A DNA stretch of 64,000 nucleotides from Streptomyces atratus. GTDB lineage: Bacteria; Actinomycetota; Actinomycetes; Streptomycetales; Streptomycetaceae. This document shows, in pieces, positions 45,246 through 52,755 of the stretch. The stretch covers positions 62,001 through 126,000 of the forward strand of contig NZ_BMRN01000007.1 of assembly GCF_014648655.1 (NCBI RefSeq), read 5' to 3'. Each line of letters begins with the position of its first letter. The stretch's first letter is position 1. The notes beneath the pieces are model-generated. The model had not been told where the DNA came from. It saw nothing but the letters and a program-made list of their open reading frames with translations, and made no database searches. The translations under genes and the position numbers were made by a program.

Positions 45246-47750
45246 ATGTCCGTACTGACGCGCGACGAAGCGCAGACCCGAGCCCAGTTCCTCGACGTAC
45301 ACCGGTACACGATCGACCTCGATCTGACCGGAGGGGAGGAGACCTTCGACTCCCGCACCGTCATCCAGTTCACCGCAGCCGCGGCCGGAGACACGTTCGT
45401 CGAGCTCAAGCCGGCCACCCTGCACTCGATCAGCCTCGACGGACAGCCCCTGGACCCCGCCGACCTCACCGAGAACCGCTTCCCGCTCACCGCACTCACC
45501 GCCGGCGCACACGAACTCCGCATCGACGCCGCCATGCGCTACTCCCGCACCGGCGAAGGCATGCACCGCTTCACCGACCCGACCGACAGCGAAACTTACG
45601 TCTACACCCAACTGTTCATGGAGGACGTCCAGCGCGTCTTCGCCGCGTTCGACCAGCCCGACCTCAAATCCGTCTTCGAGCTCACCGTCACCGCCCCCGA
45701 AGGCTGGACCGTCCTCGGCAACGGCATCGCCGAGCACCGGGGCGACGGCCGGTGGACCCTGGCCGCCACCCCGCTGATCTCCACCTACCTCGTCGCCGTC
45801 GCCGCAGGCCCCTGGCACTCCGTGACCACCGAACACGCCGGACTGCCCTTCGGCATCCACTGCCGCCGCTCACTGGCCCCGTACCTCGACTCGGACGCCG
45901 ACGAGATCCTCGACATCACCCGCGCCTGCTTCGACCGCTTCCACGAGAAGTTCGACGAGCCCTACCCCTTCGACTCCTACGACCAGGCATTCGTCCCCGA
46001 GTTCAACGCGGGCGCCATGGAGAACCCCGGACTCGTCACCTTCCGCGACGAGTTCATCTACCGCTCCGCCGTCACCGACACCGAGCGCCAGACCCGCGGC
46101 ATGGTCATCGCCCACGAGATGGCCCACATGTGGTTCGGCGACCTCGTCACCCTCGCCTGGTGGGACGACATCTGGCTCAACGAGTCCTTCGCCGAGTACA
46201 TGGGCTACCAGACCCTCGCCGAGGCCACCCGATTCACGGACACCTGGGTCGACTTCGGCGTCGCCCGCAAGGGCTGGGGATACGACGCCGACCAGCGCCC
46301 CTCCACCCACCCCGTCGCCCCCGACCCGGCCGCCGTCCCCGACACCGCGTCCGCGATGCTCAACTTCGACGGCATCTCCTACGCCAAGGGCGCATCCGCC
46401 CTGCGCCAACTCGTCGCCTGGCTCGGCGAGAAGGACTTCCTGGCCGGCATCAACACCCACTTCGCCCGCCACAAGTTCGCCAACGCCACCCTCGCCGACT
46501 TCATCGACAACCTCGCATCGGCCACCGACCGCGACGTCCACGCCTGGGCCGACGCCTGGCTGCGCACCACCGGAGTCGACACCCTCACCCCCCGGGTCGA
46601 GGAGTCCGACGGCATGTGGTCCCTCACCGTCGACCACGACGGCACCCGCCCCCACCGCATCGCCGTCGGCGCATACGACCACGCCCCGGACGCCCACCCC
46701 GGCCCCGACCGCCTCGTCCTGCGCGACCGGTTCGAGATCGACGTCCCCCAGAACGACACGGTCAAGGCACTGTCCGGCCGACGCCCCGCCCTCGTCGTCC
46801 TCAACGACGGCGACCTCAGCTACGCCAAGGTCCGCCTCGACGCCAAGTCCTGGGACACCGTCGTACGCGACCTGTCCGGCATCCCCGACGCGCTGACCCG
46901 CGCCGTCATCTGGAACACCGCCCGCGACATGGTCCGCGACGGCGAACTCGCCCCCACCACCTACCTCGAAGCGGCCCGCGCACACCTCCCGCACGAGACC
47001 GACCTCGCCCTCGCCCAGGGCGTACTCGCCTTCGCCGACACCCAGATCGCCGGCCGCTACCTCGCCCCCGAGAACCGCCCCGCTGCCCTCGCCACCCTCA
47101 CCGCCCTGTGCCGCGACCTCATCCGCCGCACCGAGGACGGCCACAACCCCGGCCTGCGCCTCGTCGCCGTACGCCACCTCATCGACGCCGCCACCCAGCC
47201 CGACACCATCCAGGACTGGCTCACCAACGGCACCGTGCCCGGCGGACCCGAACTCGACCCCGAGCTGCGCTGGCGCATCCTCACCCGCCTCGCCGTCCTC
47301 GGCGCCACCGACGAAACCGCCATCACCGCCGAACTCGAACAGGACCCCAGCGCCACCGGACAGGAAGGCGCCGCCCGCTGCCGGGCCGCCCTCCCCACCC
47401 CCGAGGCCAAGGCCGCCGCCTGGCACGCCCTGTTCAACGACGACAGCCTCTCCAACTACCTCTTCACCGCCACCGCCCAGGGCTTCTGGCAACCCGAACA
47501 GGCCGACCTCGTACGGGACTACGTGCCCCGCTACTACCCCGAGGCGACCCGGCTCGCCGCCCGCCGCGGCCCCGCCATCGCCGAAGCCGCCGGCCGCTAC
47601 GCCTTCCCCGCGTACGCCGTCGATGCCGACAGCCTCCACCTCGGCGAACAGGCCCTGAACAACAAGGACCTCATCCCGGCCCTGCGCCGCAAGCTCATCG
47701 ACCAGATCGACGACCTGCGCCGCGCCCTCAACGTGCGAACTGGCAGCTGA
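45246..47750 (+). CDS. pepN: Aminopeptidase N (M1 family)
   Basis: 834 residues, typical of actinobacterial M1 aminopeptidase N. The exopeptidase motif GAMEN (in FNAGAMENPG, about residue 256) binds the free N-terminus, and the zinc site is HEMAH (about 290) with the third ligand Glu in NESFAEYMG. The C-terminal part is the helical ERAP1-like domain. It trims N-terminal residues from peptides in the cytoplasm. The codon usage is unusually C-rich, like the following genes. The ATG is followed by VLTRDEAQTRAQFLD, as in homologues. Confidence 0.95.
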   Translation: MSVLTRDEAQTRAQFLDVHRYTIDLDLTGGEETFDSRTVIQFTAAAAGDTFVELKPATLHSISLDGQPLDPADLTENRFPLTALTAGAHELRIDAAMRYSRTGEGMHRFTDPTDSETYVYTQLFMEDVQRVFAAFDQPDLKSVFELTVTAPEGWTVLGNGIAEHRGDGRWTLAATPLISTYLVAVAAGPWHSVTTEHAGLPFGIHCRRSLAPYLDSDADEILDITRACFDRFHEKFDEPYPFDSYDQAFVPEFNAGAMENPGLVTFRDEFIYRSAVTDTERQTRGMVIAHEMAHMWFGDLVTLAWWDDIWLNESFAEYMGYQTLAEATRFTDTWVDFGVARKGWGYDADQRPSTHPVAPDPAAVPDTASAMLNFDGISYAKGASALRQLVAWLGEKDFLAGINTHFARHKFANATLADFIDNLASATDRDVHAWADAWLRTTGVDTLTPRVEESDGMWSLTVDHDGTRPHRIAVGAYDHAPDAHPGPDRLVLRDRFEIDVPQNDTVKALSGRRPALVVLNDGDLSYAKVRLDAKSWDTVVRDLSGIPDALTRAVIWNTARDMVRDGELAPTTYLEAARAHLPHETDLALAQGVLAFADTQIAGRYLAPENRPAALATLTALCRDLIRRTEDGHNPGLRLVAVRHLIDAATQPDTIQDWLTNGTVPGGPELDPELRWRILTRLAVLGATDETAITAELEQDPSATGQEGAARCRAALPTPEAKAAAWHALFNDDSLSNYLFTATAQGFWQPEQADLVRDYVPRYYPEATRLAARRGPAIAEAAGRYAFPAYAVDADSLHLGEQALNNKDLIPALRRKLIDQIDDLRRALNVRTGS

Positions 47751-48132
47751 CCAGCGGGTTGCGCCAACTCGGGCCTCCCGCAGCGTGATTCCGGCCGCGG
47801 GAGGTCAACAGGGTTAAAAAAAATGAGAATTGACGGTGTGAAAGATGCCGAGTTAACCTTGACGCGTTACGAGCCATTCGGCTGAGCGTGACACGGTGCC
47901 CGGCATATGGCTGGGTGCTCCTGCCAGGAGCCTTGAGCTGACGTTTCCGACCAGAATCATGGGCGGAGACGGGCGAGCGAGAGTCCGTCGAGTGCTTCTC
48001 CGGATCGACGCAGCGCGTATCGCACGAATCCGTACCCCGGGTCAAGCGGTGCAGCCGCAAGACATCTGAGTTCAGGTCGGATTCGAGCGAGAGGATGGCG
48101 CCGCCATCAACGCGAATTTTCCTGTCGACCGT
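47751..48132 (+). promoter_or_regulatory. AT-rich intergenic region before the DUF3800 gene, with a possible promoter
   Basis: 382 bases without a gene, distinctly lower in GC (for example ggttaaaaaaaatgag near 47815). TTGACG at 47830-47835 and TAACCT at 47854-47859 make a plausible promoter with an 18-base spacer, giving a long leader of about 265 bases. The start of foreign-looking composition here suggests an inserted segment. Otherwise I see nothing. Confidence 0.45.
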
Positions 48133-48768
48133 GTGATCCACATCGACGACTCCGGTATCCCCGGAGAAGGCCTCGCTGTGTACGCGGCCGTCAGCGCATC
48201 GGTGCACCAGGCAGCCGCGTTTGAGCGTGACTGGTTTGGCCTCCGCGCCGAATGGCTCGCCGAACACGGAGTCCCTGTCGACTACGAACTCCACGCCACC
48301 CGCTTCATCCCCGGACGGGGACGGCCCGGCGGTTACAACCCCGCCCGTCTTGACCGGTACCGCATGGCGCAGAGCGCCCTTGACCTGATCGGGAGCCACT
48401 CGGGAGTGACCGTCACCGCTGTGCATTCCTCGGTGAGTGGCGACTGGCGCAGGGCGAGGGCGGCATCGTACGAGGGGCTTCTGCGGCAGCTCGACCGGGA
48501 GCTTGCCGCCGGTGGTGAGCACGCCGCGCTCGTCGTGGACGGTGACGGGACCGAAGCTCTCTACGGGCAGGTCCATACCGACGTTCAGCCCGCTCGCGTC
48601 GTCCGGCCCGCGCAGCAGCGACCGGCGCACGAGTCTCTTTGGCTGCAGGCAGCCGACCTGGTCGCATATGCCGCCTTCCAGTCCGTTGCCCAGCAGGAGA
48701 ACCGGCGCTTCATGTGGCACTGGTACAGCCGTTACCTGCCCAAGGCAAAGACGCCGCTGCGATATTGA
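48133..48768 (+). CDS. DUF3800-domain protein
   Basis: 211 residues. The N-terminus IHIDDSGIPGEG is the DUF3800 motif (a DxxG-type acidic site as in RNase H-like folds), ALVVDGDGTEALYG supplies a second acidic cluster, and LWLQAADLVAYAAFQSVAQQ is the family's C-terminal Q-A-D-L-x-A-Y motif. Function is unproven; DUF3800 genes often sit in defence-associated and mobile regions. The start is GTG 48133 without a good SD; codons upstream (DGAAINANFPVDRV) are open for another 20 residues, so a non-standard start is possible. The next gene begins 190 bases later on the same strand. Confidence 0.75.
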   Translation: MIHIDDSGIPGEGLAVYAAVSASVHQAAAFERDWFGLRAEWLAEHGVPVDYELHATRFIPGRGRPGGYNPARLDRYRMAQSALDLIGSHSGVTVTAVHSSVSGDWRRARAASYEGLLRQLDRELAAGGEHAALVVDGDGTEALYGQVHTDVQPARVVRPAQQRPAHESLWLQAADLVAYAAFQSVAQQENRRFMWHWYSRYLPKAKTPLRY

Positions 48769-48800
48769 GCCGCTGTGGAATCGAACCGCGAAACGACGAA

Positions 48801-48822
48801 ACCCCGGCCTGGCAGCCGGGGT
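48801..48822 (+). terminator. Hairpin after the DUF3800 gene
   Basis: Arms accccggc (48801-48808) and gccggggt (48815-48822) with a 6-base loop, 33 bases after the stop. A second small hairpin (ctggt...accag near 48838-48853) follows. Confidence 0.6.
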
Positions 48823-48958
48823 CCGTGAAAGCAGACCTGGTGCACATACCAGTGGCACCCGGACCGCCCTCGCAGTCTAGCGCCATATACCACGGGAGGC
48901 CAGCTGGAGGAAAAGCTGATCTCCATGGAGGGGCAACACAAGCAGATGAAGGAGACAG

Positions 48959-51151
48959 ATGAATATCCCCACCGGATTCCAGGAACCGACCGACCACGAA
49001 GGCGCGGGCCTGGATGACAGGGGCCAGGGCCCGCAGACCATCACCTTCTTCTACGGAGACGAAGAATTCACCGTCTCCGGCTTCGAGCGAAGCCTTCCCG
49101 AGCTGTCCTCCGTCACCGACCGGACAGCCCTGGTCAGAGCGGGCCACGACTCCGTGGGCACCGCCATCGACATGGATTCCTGGCATGCCGTTGCCCGGGG
49201 CATGGTCGCCCCCGCCTCCGCCGCCGCCCAGCTCCGCTCCCAGAAGGGCCAGACCTCGGCCCTGATTGAGGAGCACGTCGAAGGCGCCACCCTGCGCTCG
49301 CTGCACACCCGTGTCTGGCTCACCGAACTCTTCCCTGGTCTCCAGCCACGCACCGGCCAGGAGGCCCTCCCGATCGGTGATCCCGAAGTCCACGGCGATG
49401 TCGGCCCCGACGGGGAGCCGCACGCCTGTGTCGTCTACACCTACCGCGACCTCACCCACCTTCGGGACCACCTCCGGCAGACATTCACCGCCACACGCCG
49501 CGCGAACCCGAATCCGTACGACCAGTCGATCCTGTCCCGACGGATCACCCGAGCCGTCATCGCCCACCCCGGCCGCCTGGAATTCGCCGACGGCACCGAA
49601 TCCATCGACGTGCTCGTCGTACGCGACGGCATTACGCGCCTCACCAGCGCCTGGGCCCTGCTTACCGATCAGGAAACCCCGGATCCCGAACGCATCGCCG
49701 AGACCGCCACCCGCCTGCTTCTCGCAGAGAAGCCCCAGCGGCGCGGCGCGACGGAAAAACCGCTCAGCCAGCGCATGGCACTCGGCAGGCAGGAAGCGCT
49801 GGCCGGACTGCGCGCAGAGTTCTACAAGGGACTGGGCCCACAGCAGCCGGCCGACCGGTCGGTGCGTCTTGGTCAGACCCTCGTGGTCCCCGCCCAGATC
49901 GCCGTCGGCCTACGACGCCACGGAAACACGGGACTGCCCCCCGGAGAAATCTTCGACGACGCGATCCGCTCCATCCTCGCCGCCGTCCACGTCGAATTCA
50001 GAGCCTGGGAATCCGCCGCCCAGAACGTCGAAGTCGGATCGCGTGCCCTGAGACGCGTACACCTGGGTGGCAAAGCCGGACCGAACCTCCTCGACGGCAT
50101 CGTCGCCCTGGCACTGGGGCACCGGCCCCCCGAAGACCTGCGCGAGATCTATCACGACCAGCGGATTCCGGGCACGGCACTGTGGCGCGCCGTCTACCTC
50201 ACCCATAGCCTGACCCGACCGGAAATCTTCGACCAGGTCAAGCGGCATGCCAAGGACATCAAGGGCACCCGCCTCATGAAGACTGTCGGGTACGCGGAGA
50301 TCCTTGGGCCGATCATTGATTTGCCCTGGCGAGGCACGAAGTCGGACTCCCTCAAGCAGGCCCGCAACGCCTGGGCCAACGGCGGCGTGCTGACCAAACG
50401 AGTCATGGACAGCTGGTCACCCGTGCCGTGCGACGACTTCACCACCCTCATCCCCTTGGCACTCGCCGGTGACAGGGACGCGCAGCAAACCCTCGCGGTG
50501 GCCGGCGGCAACGCCCTGGTCGCCGACAAAATGATCACACGCAACGTAGGGTCCGCAGTCGGTAGAACAGTGCCCTGGCGGTCCGACGTCAACCAAGTCG
50601 TCGCCGGACTCGCTGAGCACGAAGAAGGACTGTGGCAGCTCGCCTTCGCTGCCAACGCATTCGACCCCGATAGTGAATGCGCCAACTCATTCACCACCGC
50701 ACAGACACTCGGCCGCGACCAGTCCGGCATGTACACCGTCCCTGATGTCGACCTCGAACAGCCTGACAGAATACGCAGAGACCGAGGCGGCGTTGCCGTC
50801 CAGCCACTCACACAGATGCGCCTGGTACTGACCTCCGACCCGGTCAGAGCGCGAGAACGAGAAGCAAGCAACGAGCAGCCCGAGAATGAGGAACTGTCAC
50901 TCGGTGAACGCTTCGCCATCCAGAGAAGGGCACTCGTCCAGGCCGTCGTTGACGCCAGGACCACCCTCAACGCACTCCTGACCCTCGCGGACGAACCCGC
51001 GTCCCGGGCCACAACTCTCCATCCCTTCGGCTCATATGAGGAATGGCAAACCCTGGACGAGAGCGTGCGTGCGCTCGAAAGCCTGATCTACAATCGCCGC
51101 CCCGCTCAACGCCCCACCGATGAAGAGGAATCGGAAGAAGAGGACTACTGA
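48959..51151 (+). CDS. Unrecognised 730-residue protein with ParB/DndB-like DGxTR motif
   Basis: I do not recognise this family. The only suggestive motif is SIDVLVVRDGITRLTSAWAL (about 215-234), which resembles the DGxxR loop of ParB-type and DndB-type proteins, with a preceding RRITRAV and LEFADGT. The rest is a mostly helical, soluble protein with no signal peptide or membrane segment, and the C-terminus is acidic (TDEEESEEEDY). ATG 48959 has AAGGAGA five bases before it. Base composition is lower in GC than the genes on both sides, and it shares this with the DUF3800 gene upstream, which suggests the two entered together. It ends at a strong perfect terminator. Confidence 0.75.
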   Translation: MNIPTGFQEPTDHEGAGLDDRGQGPQTITFFYGDEEFTVSGFERSLPELSSVTDRTALVRAGHDSVGTAIDMDSWHAVARGMVAPASAAAQLRSQKGQTSALIEEHVEGATLRSLHTRVWLTELFPGLQPRTGQEALPIGDPEVHGDVGPDGEPHACVVYTYRDLTHLRDHLRQTFTATRRANPNPYDQSILSRRITRAVIAHPGRLEFADGTESIDVLVVRDGITRLTSAWALLTDQETPDPERIAETATRLLLAEKPQRRGATEKPLSQRMALGRQEALAGLRAEFYKGLGPQQPADRSVRLGQTLVVPAQIAVGLRRHGNTGLPPGEIFDDAIRSILAAVHVEFRAWESAAQNVEVGSRALRRVHLGGKAGPNLLDGIVALALGHRPPEDLREIYHDQRIPGTALWRAVYLTHSLTRPEIFDQVKRHAKDIKGTRLMKTVGYAEILGPIIDLPWRGTKSDSLKQARNAWANGGVLTKRVMDSWSPVPCDDFTTLIPLALAGDRDAQQTLAVAGGNALVADKMITRNVGSAVGRTVPWRSDVNQVVAGLAEHEEGLWQLAFAANAFDPDSECANSFTTAQTLGRDQSGMYTVPDVDLEQPDRIRRDRGGVAVQPLTQMRLVLTSDPVRAREREASNEQPENEELSLGERFAIQRRALVQAVVDARTTLNALLTLADEPASRATTLHPFGSYEEWQTLDESVRALESLIYNRRPAQRPTDEEESEEEDY

Positions 51152-51169
51152 CACGACGAGCAGTCGTCC

Positions 51170-51205
51170 GATCGGGAGGCCCCGGACCACCGGGGCCTCC
51201 CGATC
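51170..51205 (+). terminator. Perfect 16-bp hairpin terminator
   Basis: Arms gatcgggaggccccgg (51170-51185) and ccggggcctcccgatc (51190-51205) with a 4-base loop, 19 bases after the stop of the 730-residue gene. It isolates the accessory pair from the decarboxylase operon. Between 51206 and 51357 I see no iron-box or other operator. Confidence 0.85.
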
Positions 51206-51357: not shown

Positions 51358-52755
51358 ATGCCCACCCCGCCCCTCGCCGGCTCGACCACCGGCCCAGCCG
51401 CCCTGCGCCCCCTCATCGACACCGTCCTCACCGCACTGCACGACGGCGCCCACCGCCGCGACGGCCCCCTCCCCGCAGGCGGACCCGACGCCGTCACCCC
51501 CCGCATGCGCACCGCCACCCACCCCGTCATCCCCGACCACGGCACCGGCCCCCACGACGCACTGCGCACCCTCGTCAGCGCCCTCGCCGAAGGCGCCGCA
51601 GACCCCGCAGACCCACTCTGCGCGGCCCACCTCCACACCCCACCCCTCGCCCTCGCCGCCGCCGCGGACCTCGCCGCCTGTGCCCTCAACCCCTCCATGG
51701 ACTCCTGGGACCAGGCCCCCGCAGCCTCCGCCCTCGAAGCCGACATCACCGCCGCACTCGCCACCGAGATCTACCCCCACCAGCCCTCACCCGACGCACT
51801 CGTCACCACCGGCGGCACCGAAGCCAACCAACTCGCCCTGCTCCTCGCCCGCGAACGCAACGGCCCCGTACAGACCATCTGCGCCGCCAACGCCCACCAC
51901 AGCATCACCCGCGCCGCCTGGCTCCTGGGCCTCCCCGCACCCCTCGTCATCCCCGCCCCCACAGGCGTCATGGACCTCGCCGCACTCGACGAAGCCCTCA
52001 CCGAACTCCACCGCCCCCTGCTCGTCACCGCCACCGCAGGCACCACCGACACCGGCCAGATCGACCCGCTCGCCGACATCGCCGACCTCTGCACCACCCA
52101 CGGCGCCGAACTCCACATCGACGCCGCCTACGGCGGACCCCTCCTCTTCAGCCCCACCCACCGAGGCAAGGTCCACGGCCTCGACCGCGCCCACAGCGTC
52201 ACCCTCGACCTGCACAAACTCGGCTGGCAACCCGCATCCGCAGGCATCCTCGCCACCCCCGACCGCACCCACCTCGACGCACTCCACCACCGCGCCTCCT
52301 ACCTCAGCGCCGACGACGACACCGAAGCCGGCCTCCCCGACCTCCTCGGCCGCTCCCTGCGCACCACCCGCCGCCCCGACGCCCTCAAGATCGCCGTCAC
52401 CCTCAAGGCCCTCGGCCGCACCGGACTCGCCGACCTCATCGACCACACCGTCGCCACCGCCCACCACCTCGCCGACCTCATCGCCAAAACCCCCACCCTC
52501 GACCTCTACGACCGCCCCACCATCAGCACCGTCCTCTTCCGCCCCACCGACGCCGACGACAACACCGTCGCCACCATCCGCCGCACCCTCCTCATCCGGG
52601 GCCACGCCGTACTCGGCCGCGCCCACACAAACAACCGCCTCTGGCTCAAAGCCACCCTCCTCAACCCCCACACCACCCCCGACGACCTCAACACACTCCT
52701 CGACCTCGTCAACCACCTCGCCCACGACCTCACAGAAGGCAGCACCCCCCGATGA
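51358..52755 (+). CDS. PLP-dependent group II decarboxylase, DesA-like
   Basis: 465 residues of the aspartate aminotransferase-fold group II decarboxylases (lysine, ornithine or diaminobutyrate decarboxylase). Landmarks are MDSWDQAPAASALEADI, VTTGGTEANQLALLLARER, the PLP-anchoring HIDAAYGGPLLFSP and the Schiff-base lysine in VTLDLHKLGWQP. The neighbouring N-hydroxylase is coupled by an ATGA overlap, as desA-desB. The substrate is probably lysine or ornithine but could be another basic amino acid. ATG with AGAAGGA nine bases upstream. The codons are extremely C-ending. Confidence 0.85.
   Translation: MPTPPLAGSTTGPAALRPLIDTVLTALHDGAHRRDGPLPAGGPDAVTPRMRTATHPVIPDHGTGPHDALRTLVSALAEGAADPADPLCAAHLHTPPLALAAAADLAACALNPSMDSWDQAPAASALEADITAALATEIYPHQPSPDALVTTGGTEANQLALLLARERNGPVQTICAANAHHSITRAAWLLGLPAPLVIPAPTGVMDLAALDEALTELHRPLLVTATAGTTDTGQIDPLADIADLCTTHGAELHIDAAYGGPLLFSPTHRGKVHGLDRAHSVTLDLHKLGWQPASAGILATPDRTHLDALHHRASYLSADDDTEAGLPDLLGRSLRTTRRPDALKIAVTLKALGRTGLADLIDHTVATAHHLADLIAKTPTLDLYDRPTISTVLFRPTDADDNTVATIRRTLLIRGHAVLGRAHTNNRLWLKATLLNPHTTPDDLNTLLDLVNHLAHDLTEGSTPR

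Follow-up and report, generated by a model that had tools for sequence, protein, structure and literature searches.

Organization of the Cassette and Its Insertion Site

The window analyzed here is a stretch of 64,000 nucleotides from the soil bacterium Streptomyces atratus, and all positions given below are those of the window unless another locus is named. A 3.4-kb cassette is found in this Streptomyces chromosome between pepN, which ends at position 47750, and the gene for a pyridoxal-dependent decarboxylase, which starts at position 51358. The cassette contains two open reading frames (ORFs) on one strand, the first for a DUF3800 protein and the second for a protein of 730 residues. In each of seven relatives lacking the cassette, pepN is the immediate neighbor of the decarboxylase gene, at a distance of a few hundred bases, and thus the cassette is an insertion. 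The same site is occupied by the cassette in two further relatives (L021 and L022), and in most others the cassette lies elsewhere. No integrase or transposase was found within it. The GC content is ~0.72–0.73 in the late part of pepN, 0.62–0.69 in the cassette, and 0.74 past the cassette, in agreement with the change of base composition after pepN that was described in the initial annotation. The cassette ends with an inverted repeat (51170–51205) whose arms, 51170–51185 and 51190–51205, form a perfect 16-bp palindrome. This element had been read as a perfect terminator; the palindrome is indeed perfect and terminator-like, but the T tract is absent.

The Predicted DUF3800 Nuclease and the Adjoining Structured Elements

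The assignment of the first gene to DUF3800 was confirmed. The product of the conventional ORF (48133–48768, with a GTG start at 48133) matches Pfam family PF12686 at 23.6 bits, above the cut-off of 21. The structure model has a mean pLDDT of 95.3, and its best solved relatives were found to be RNases H2, HII, and HIII, with Z scores of 10.3–8.2 over ~125–155 residues and a Foldseek E value of 4e-4. The likeness to RNase H2 (RNase HII) in fold extends over residues 1–192 (Z 10.3, rmsd 3.2) and includes a double acid on the first strand, whereas the sequence identity is ~13% and the cassette protein is accompanied by a paired RNA and a partner gene. On the basis of the model, we confidently assign to the DUF3800 protein an RNase H2-like fold, which is a nuclease fold. 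The acidic motifs DDSG, VDGDG, and QAAD were identified in the alignment of homologs (A8); the corresponding DD/DE-SG, DGDG, and QAAD motifs are kept in the intact members and lost in four others (L043, L048, L057, and L061). One match with a single in-frame stop (L059) was scored as intact since the motif residues and the downstream R1 element, described below, are kept. The model and the acidic motifs agree with the published view of DUF3800 as an RNase H-fold nuclease (PMC10910872, PMC12669027). Putative noncoding RNAs have been reported to accompany DUF3800, which also occurs near Cas12a2 (PMC10910872) and in the V-A2 and VI-F loci (PMC12669027).

The GTG at 48133 is probably not the start of translation. 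In the DUF3800 genes of L021, L022, L023, and L055, there is no ATG, GTG, TTG, or CTG between the in-frame stop and the catalytic DxSG. These genes have in common with the window an in-frame ATCA(A/G)C (L021:4376, L022:7160, L023:7136, L055:7075, and window 48106–48108), which is located approximately where the other groups have the DUF3800 start codon. The simplest reading is that the window gene and those of its subgroup probably start at AUC, at 48106 in the window, so that the DUF3800 gene would extend from 48106 to 48768 on the plus strand. The same pattern suggests that AUC initiation is conserved among the DUF3800 ORFs of the subgroup.

A conserved noncoding stretch of ~240 bases lies directly 5' of the DUF3800 gene (47867–48105, plus strand). 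It carries the conserved blocks ACGAGCC, GACGCAGCGCGTATCGC, and AGCGGTGCAGCCGC and can be aligned across groups. Covariation was determined twice, in an alignment of 14 relatives and in a separate one of 7 sequences that include the window. Cells in which both sides of a pair had changed numbered 58 in the first alignment (shuffled mean, 23.1) and 32 in the second (shuffled mean, 13.1); none of 500 shuffles reached the observed number in either alignment, with the relatedness of the sequences as a caveat for the shuffles. The slid controls were far below the observed values, a comparison that is biased toward the structures, as these were predicted from the tested alignments. Since cells with G-U pairs outnumber those with A-C mismatches (118 versus 16 and 44 versus 15 in the two alignments), the RNA is assigned to the gene (plus) strand. 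Judging from this covariation, the ~240-nt leader is a newly recognized structured, sense-strand RNA. It is preceded by the promoter-like pair TTGACG-N18-TAACCT (47830–47859, plus strand), which is retained in three relatives (L022, L055, and L014); the pair was not called by a generic sigma-70 scan. The identity between close pairs of loci jumps at this position, and the leader is conserved between them to the same extent as the coding sequence. A perfect 13-nt complementarity between the 5' end of the leader (47870–47882) and the DUF3800 ORF (48247–48259) beat all 60 shuffles in the window and was rejected as window-specific, as it is missing from six relatives.

A second element, R1, is located shortly 3' of the DUF3800 stop codon (48795–48881) and consists of 87 nt with two hairpins, P1 and P2. 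The terminator that had been placed between the two genes is actually one of these hairpins. The conserved core of R1 is GGACCTGG...CCxGGACCGC, and P2 carries GACCTGG...CCCGGACCGC and AGTCT. A covariance model built from 24 copies recovers, by construction, these 24 among 49 loci with E values below 2e-7 and has no match in the other 25. Further copies outside the building set were all found beside DUF3800; weaker matches in G069 and G613, which lie away from DUF3800, were not considered further. In the realigned set (n = 28), which was fitted to the structure and leans toward it, 90.9% of cells pair and both sides changed in 53 cells against a shuffled mean of 13.0 (0 of 500 shuffles). A plain MAFFT alignment gave a similar outcome (41 cells against 13.3). 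In R1, the A-C cells outnumber the G-U cells (24 versus 13), so that the element may be transcribed from the opposite strand, function at the DNA level, or be active on both strands. No DUF3800 family in Rfam, e.g., RF02969 (DUF3800-I) or RF02968 (DUF3800-IX), was matched by either the leader or R1 at E values up to 5–10, and no Rfam family of any kind was matched by the leader.

Among the 41 loci of the large gene described below, R1 is present in 21 of the 24 with an intact DUF3800 gene and in none of the 15 in which this gene is degenerate or missing. In L136, L145, and, weakly, L147, DUF3800 is followed by R1 where the large gene is absent. R1 therefore belongs to the nuclease, and the RNA and the nuclease together form the core of the cassette; the idea that R1 does no more than control the large gene was rejected as the sole explanation. 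In one of these loci (L136, a 14001-base region of G562), DUF3800 and R1 adjoin ORFs that resemble, by eye, DUF2075-type helicases.

The 730-Residue Protein and Its Distribution

The second gene (48959–51151, plus strand) is preceded by the ribosome binding site AAGGAG (48949–48954, plus strand). Its product had been described as an unrecognized 730-residue protein with the stretch VRDGITRL, which was located at residues 221–228. No match to it was found in Pfam, NCBIfam, or PADLOC, a sequence search of the PDB returned nothing useful, and the cassette proteins had no match among the PADLOC models at E values up to 1. The protein thus belongs to an undescribed family. The AlphaFold model has a mean pLDDT of 83.9. 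Foldseek alone gave no significant match with this model. With VIA-align, residues 112–350 were matched to ParB with a Z of 6.2 and an rmsd of 2.7 over 95 residues, and to sulfiredoxin with a Z of 4.7. The first seven rows are all ParB or sulfiredoxin (Z 6.2–4.4), and the next, unrelated row has a Z of 3.4; weaker matches include SspE (Z 2.9) and BrxU of the GmrSD family (Z 2.2). The protein therefore models with a ParB/sulfiredoxin-fold domain (residues ~112–350; 49292–50008, plus strand), where the moderate Z scores limit the claim to the fold and do not extend it to the family.

Two invariant motifs lie within this domain, QPR at residues 129–131 (49343–49351) and DGITR, of the form DGxTR, at residues 223–227 (49625–49639). 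They resemble the QPR and GERR motifs in the ParB proteins of the relatives, and from the sequences we infer that the residues correspond. The fold and the QPR and DGxxR motifs are shared with the ParB CTPases, sulfiredoxin, SspE, and GmrSD/BrxU, whereas no sequence-profile relation to these proteins was found. A comparison with alignments of Streptomyces DndB and ParB proteins gave probabilities of 0.1–0.3%, hhalign against ParB (PF02195) gave 0.2%, and none of the 35 members of the large-protein family has a DndB or ParB match in Pfam. The large protein also differs from these ParB/sulfiredoxin-fold proteins in that Pfam recognizes no HNH nuclease domain in it and in its large helical C-terminal part. 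The DndB/DGQHR proteins (PF14072) also have a DGxxR motif in a ParB-like fold, but the consensus of the large protein contains DGITR and no FxxxN motif, and there are no dnd genes in the cassette. The likeness to ParB and DndB that had been suspected thus holds for the fold, and membership of either sequence family is not supported. Elsewhere in the same genome, two genes with DndB domains (DGQQR) were found ~1.5 kb apart (G000:C10:178940-182183; L088 and L099), and this arrangement is common to G000, G005, G037, and G050.

The C-terminal part of the large protein (50009–51151, plus strand) is helical in the model, with a long helix at residues 648–677, and ends in an acidic tail, a feature also of its homologs. 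In G035 (L018:8231-10422), the protein is divided between two overlapping ORFs, a ParB-like half and a helical half, which suggests that the domains are separable.

The large-protein alignment was scanned against 84,980 species genomes, and 41 loci were obtained. Nearly all are from Streptomyces, together with Streptosporangium and Herbidospora. DUF3800 is immediately upstream of the large gene on the same strand in 30 of the 39 loci that could be checked; the other two, L039 and L041, are truncated by the end of the contig and carry the label no_DUF in the large-protein tree. The initial annotation had proposed a two-gene unit, and the pairing is real and not a chance arrangement; the leader RNA and R1 had been missed, and both accompany the nuclease more consistently than the large gene does. 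The large gene was found in 6 of 150 sampled Streptomyces, and DUF3800 relatives of the cassette type in 17 of 298 sampled genomes of the family, where most are followed by the large gene.

According to the large-protein tree, R1 and the nuclease were lost together in a single clade of 17 rows, which is well supported, and in L040; by this topology the losses are a few events and not fifteen. One clade has neither the nuclease nor R1 and retains the large gene at a stable position in the chromosome, and thus the large protein serves some purpose independent of them. In the nuclease-bearing lineages, the cassette is inserted at different sites with varied neighborhoods. A gene for a protein of 113 residues, from a family without a Pfam match, is upstream of the large gene in 18 loci (e.g., L017:11737-12078, minus strand), mainly in the clade that lacks DUF3800 and R1, and may be a replacement partner. 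Distant homologs of the large protein are encoded on plasmids, from Tsukamurella and, as linear plasmids, from Streptomyces and Kutzneria. Two of the plasmid genes are followed by a small overlapping ORF (L019:9961-10377, 138 residues; L020:4388-4753, 121 residues) without a Pfam match, and DUF3800 is absent there. A second possible association of DUF3800 was noticed in L150:5423-9351, L151, and L152, where a distant DUF3800 gene is close to a conserved opposite-strand gene for a protein of ~910 residues with a GVGGIGKT/S P-loop.

Possible Function of the Cassette

Like the known DUF3800-associated RNAs, the cassette combines a structured RNA with an adjacent DUF3800 protein of RNase H fold (PMC10910872, PMC11701678, PMC12669027). 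From its sequence, with a conserved structured RNA adjoining the DUF3800 gene, it fits the DUF3800–RNA systems generally. It differs from these and from the DUF3800 loci near Cas12a2 in that it is actinobacterial and its partner is a ParB-fold protein and not Cas12 or a TPR protein. The cassette is thus better described as a DUF3800 nuclease–RNA module with a ParB-fold partner, of a kind that is known and unexplained, than as the two-gene nucleic-acid defense or modification system first proposed. From that proposal, the conserved pair and the suspected fold of the large protein stand, and the DNA-modification role is not supported. Antiviral defense is plausible, given the patchy distribution and the presence of some defense-gene neighbors. 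Shedu is beside L014, PglW is near L026, a type II cytosine methylase is near L037, and a PsyrT/DpdF-like helicase is near L055. These neighborhoods are no more than suggestive of defense.

The reading that we prefer, with a probability of roughly 0.45, is that the cassette is a ribonucleoprotein nuclease system acting against phages or plasmids. The leader RNA, perhaps together with R1, would be bound and/or processed by the DUF3800 protein and would either set the specificity of this putative nuclease or keep it inactive. The ParB-fold protein would be a partner that responds to NTP, binds nucleic acid, and senses or positions the target, and the whole set would act against the invading phage or plasmid. 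Because of its weak AUC start, the nuclease would be made in small amounts. Against this reading stand the lack of phage-encoded homologs among viral contigs and phage records, the lack of a PADLOC match for most of the tested neighbors of the cassette loci, the excess of A-C over G-U cells in R1, and the clade that retains the large gene without the nuclease or R1. A more specific form, rather unlikely as it stands, is an immune ribonucleoprotein composed of the RNase H2-like nuclease and the long structured RNA of its own operon, with a ParB-fold NTP-dependent clamp that directs or triggers the nuclease and an AUC start that restrains its translation. If true, this would be a new class.

It is also possible, if doubtful, that the structured RNA holds DUF3800 inactive until infection frees it and growth stops, as in abortive infection by type III toxin-antitoxin systems. 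The nuclease and the RNA are encoded together with a promoter-like pair before the RNA, R1 is lost where the active site of DUF3800 is lost, and the weak AUC start would suit a toxic protein. The antitoxin RNAs of the classic ToxIN systems have tandem repeats, however, and none were found in the leader or elsewhere in 47700–49000; in addition, the RNase H fold is unlike that of ToxN, and the ParB-fold partner is left unexplained.

The positions of the leader, directly before the start codon, and of R1, between the genes and ~80–165 bases before the large gene, would suit elements that are only cis-acting controls of the mRNA, with the proteins working alone. We consider this unlikely, as R1 keeps its place immediately behind DUF3800 in loci that lack the large gene and vanishes together with the nuclease active site, and the leader is conserved like coding sequence between close pairs. 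A host or plasmid-maintenance role unrelated to defense is quite unlikely. The ParB-like fold, the distant plasmid homologs, and the clade at a fixed chromosomal site would be consistent with such a role, but the cassette is rare and patchy, and its insertion sites differ in the nuclease-bearing lineages. An OMEGA-like nuclease guided by a segment of the RNA, as the RNase H fold and the adjacent structured RNA might suggest, is highly improbable, since four close pairs contain no hypervariable, guide-like segment of 20–30 nt, the single long complementarity to the ORF is specific to the window, and the cassette is without a transposase.

Many orphan RNAs and some CRISPR loci are linked to DUF3800, for which a literature search found no established role. 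The cassettes described here are compact examples with a defined RNA, a putative nuclease, and a ParB-fold partner, and their natural losses delimit the working unit. With the ready genetics of Streptomyces and so compact a cassette, the function of DUF3800 and its RNA becomes testable.
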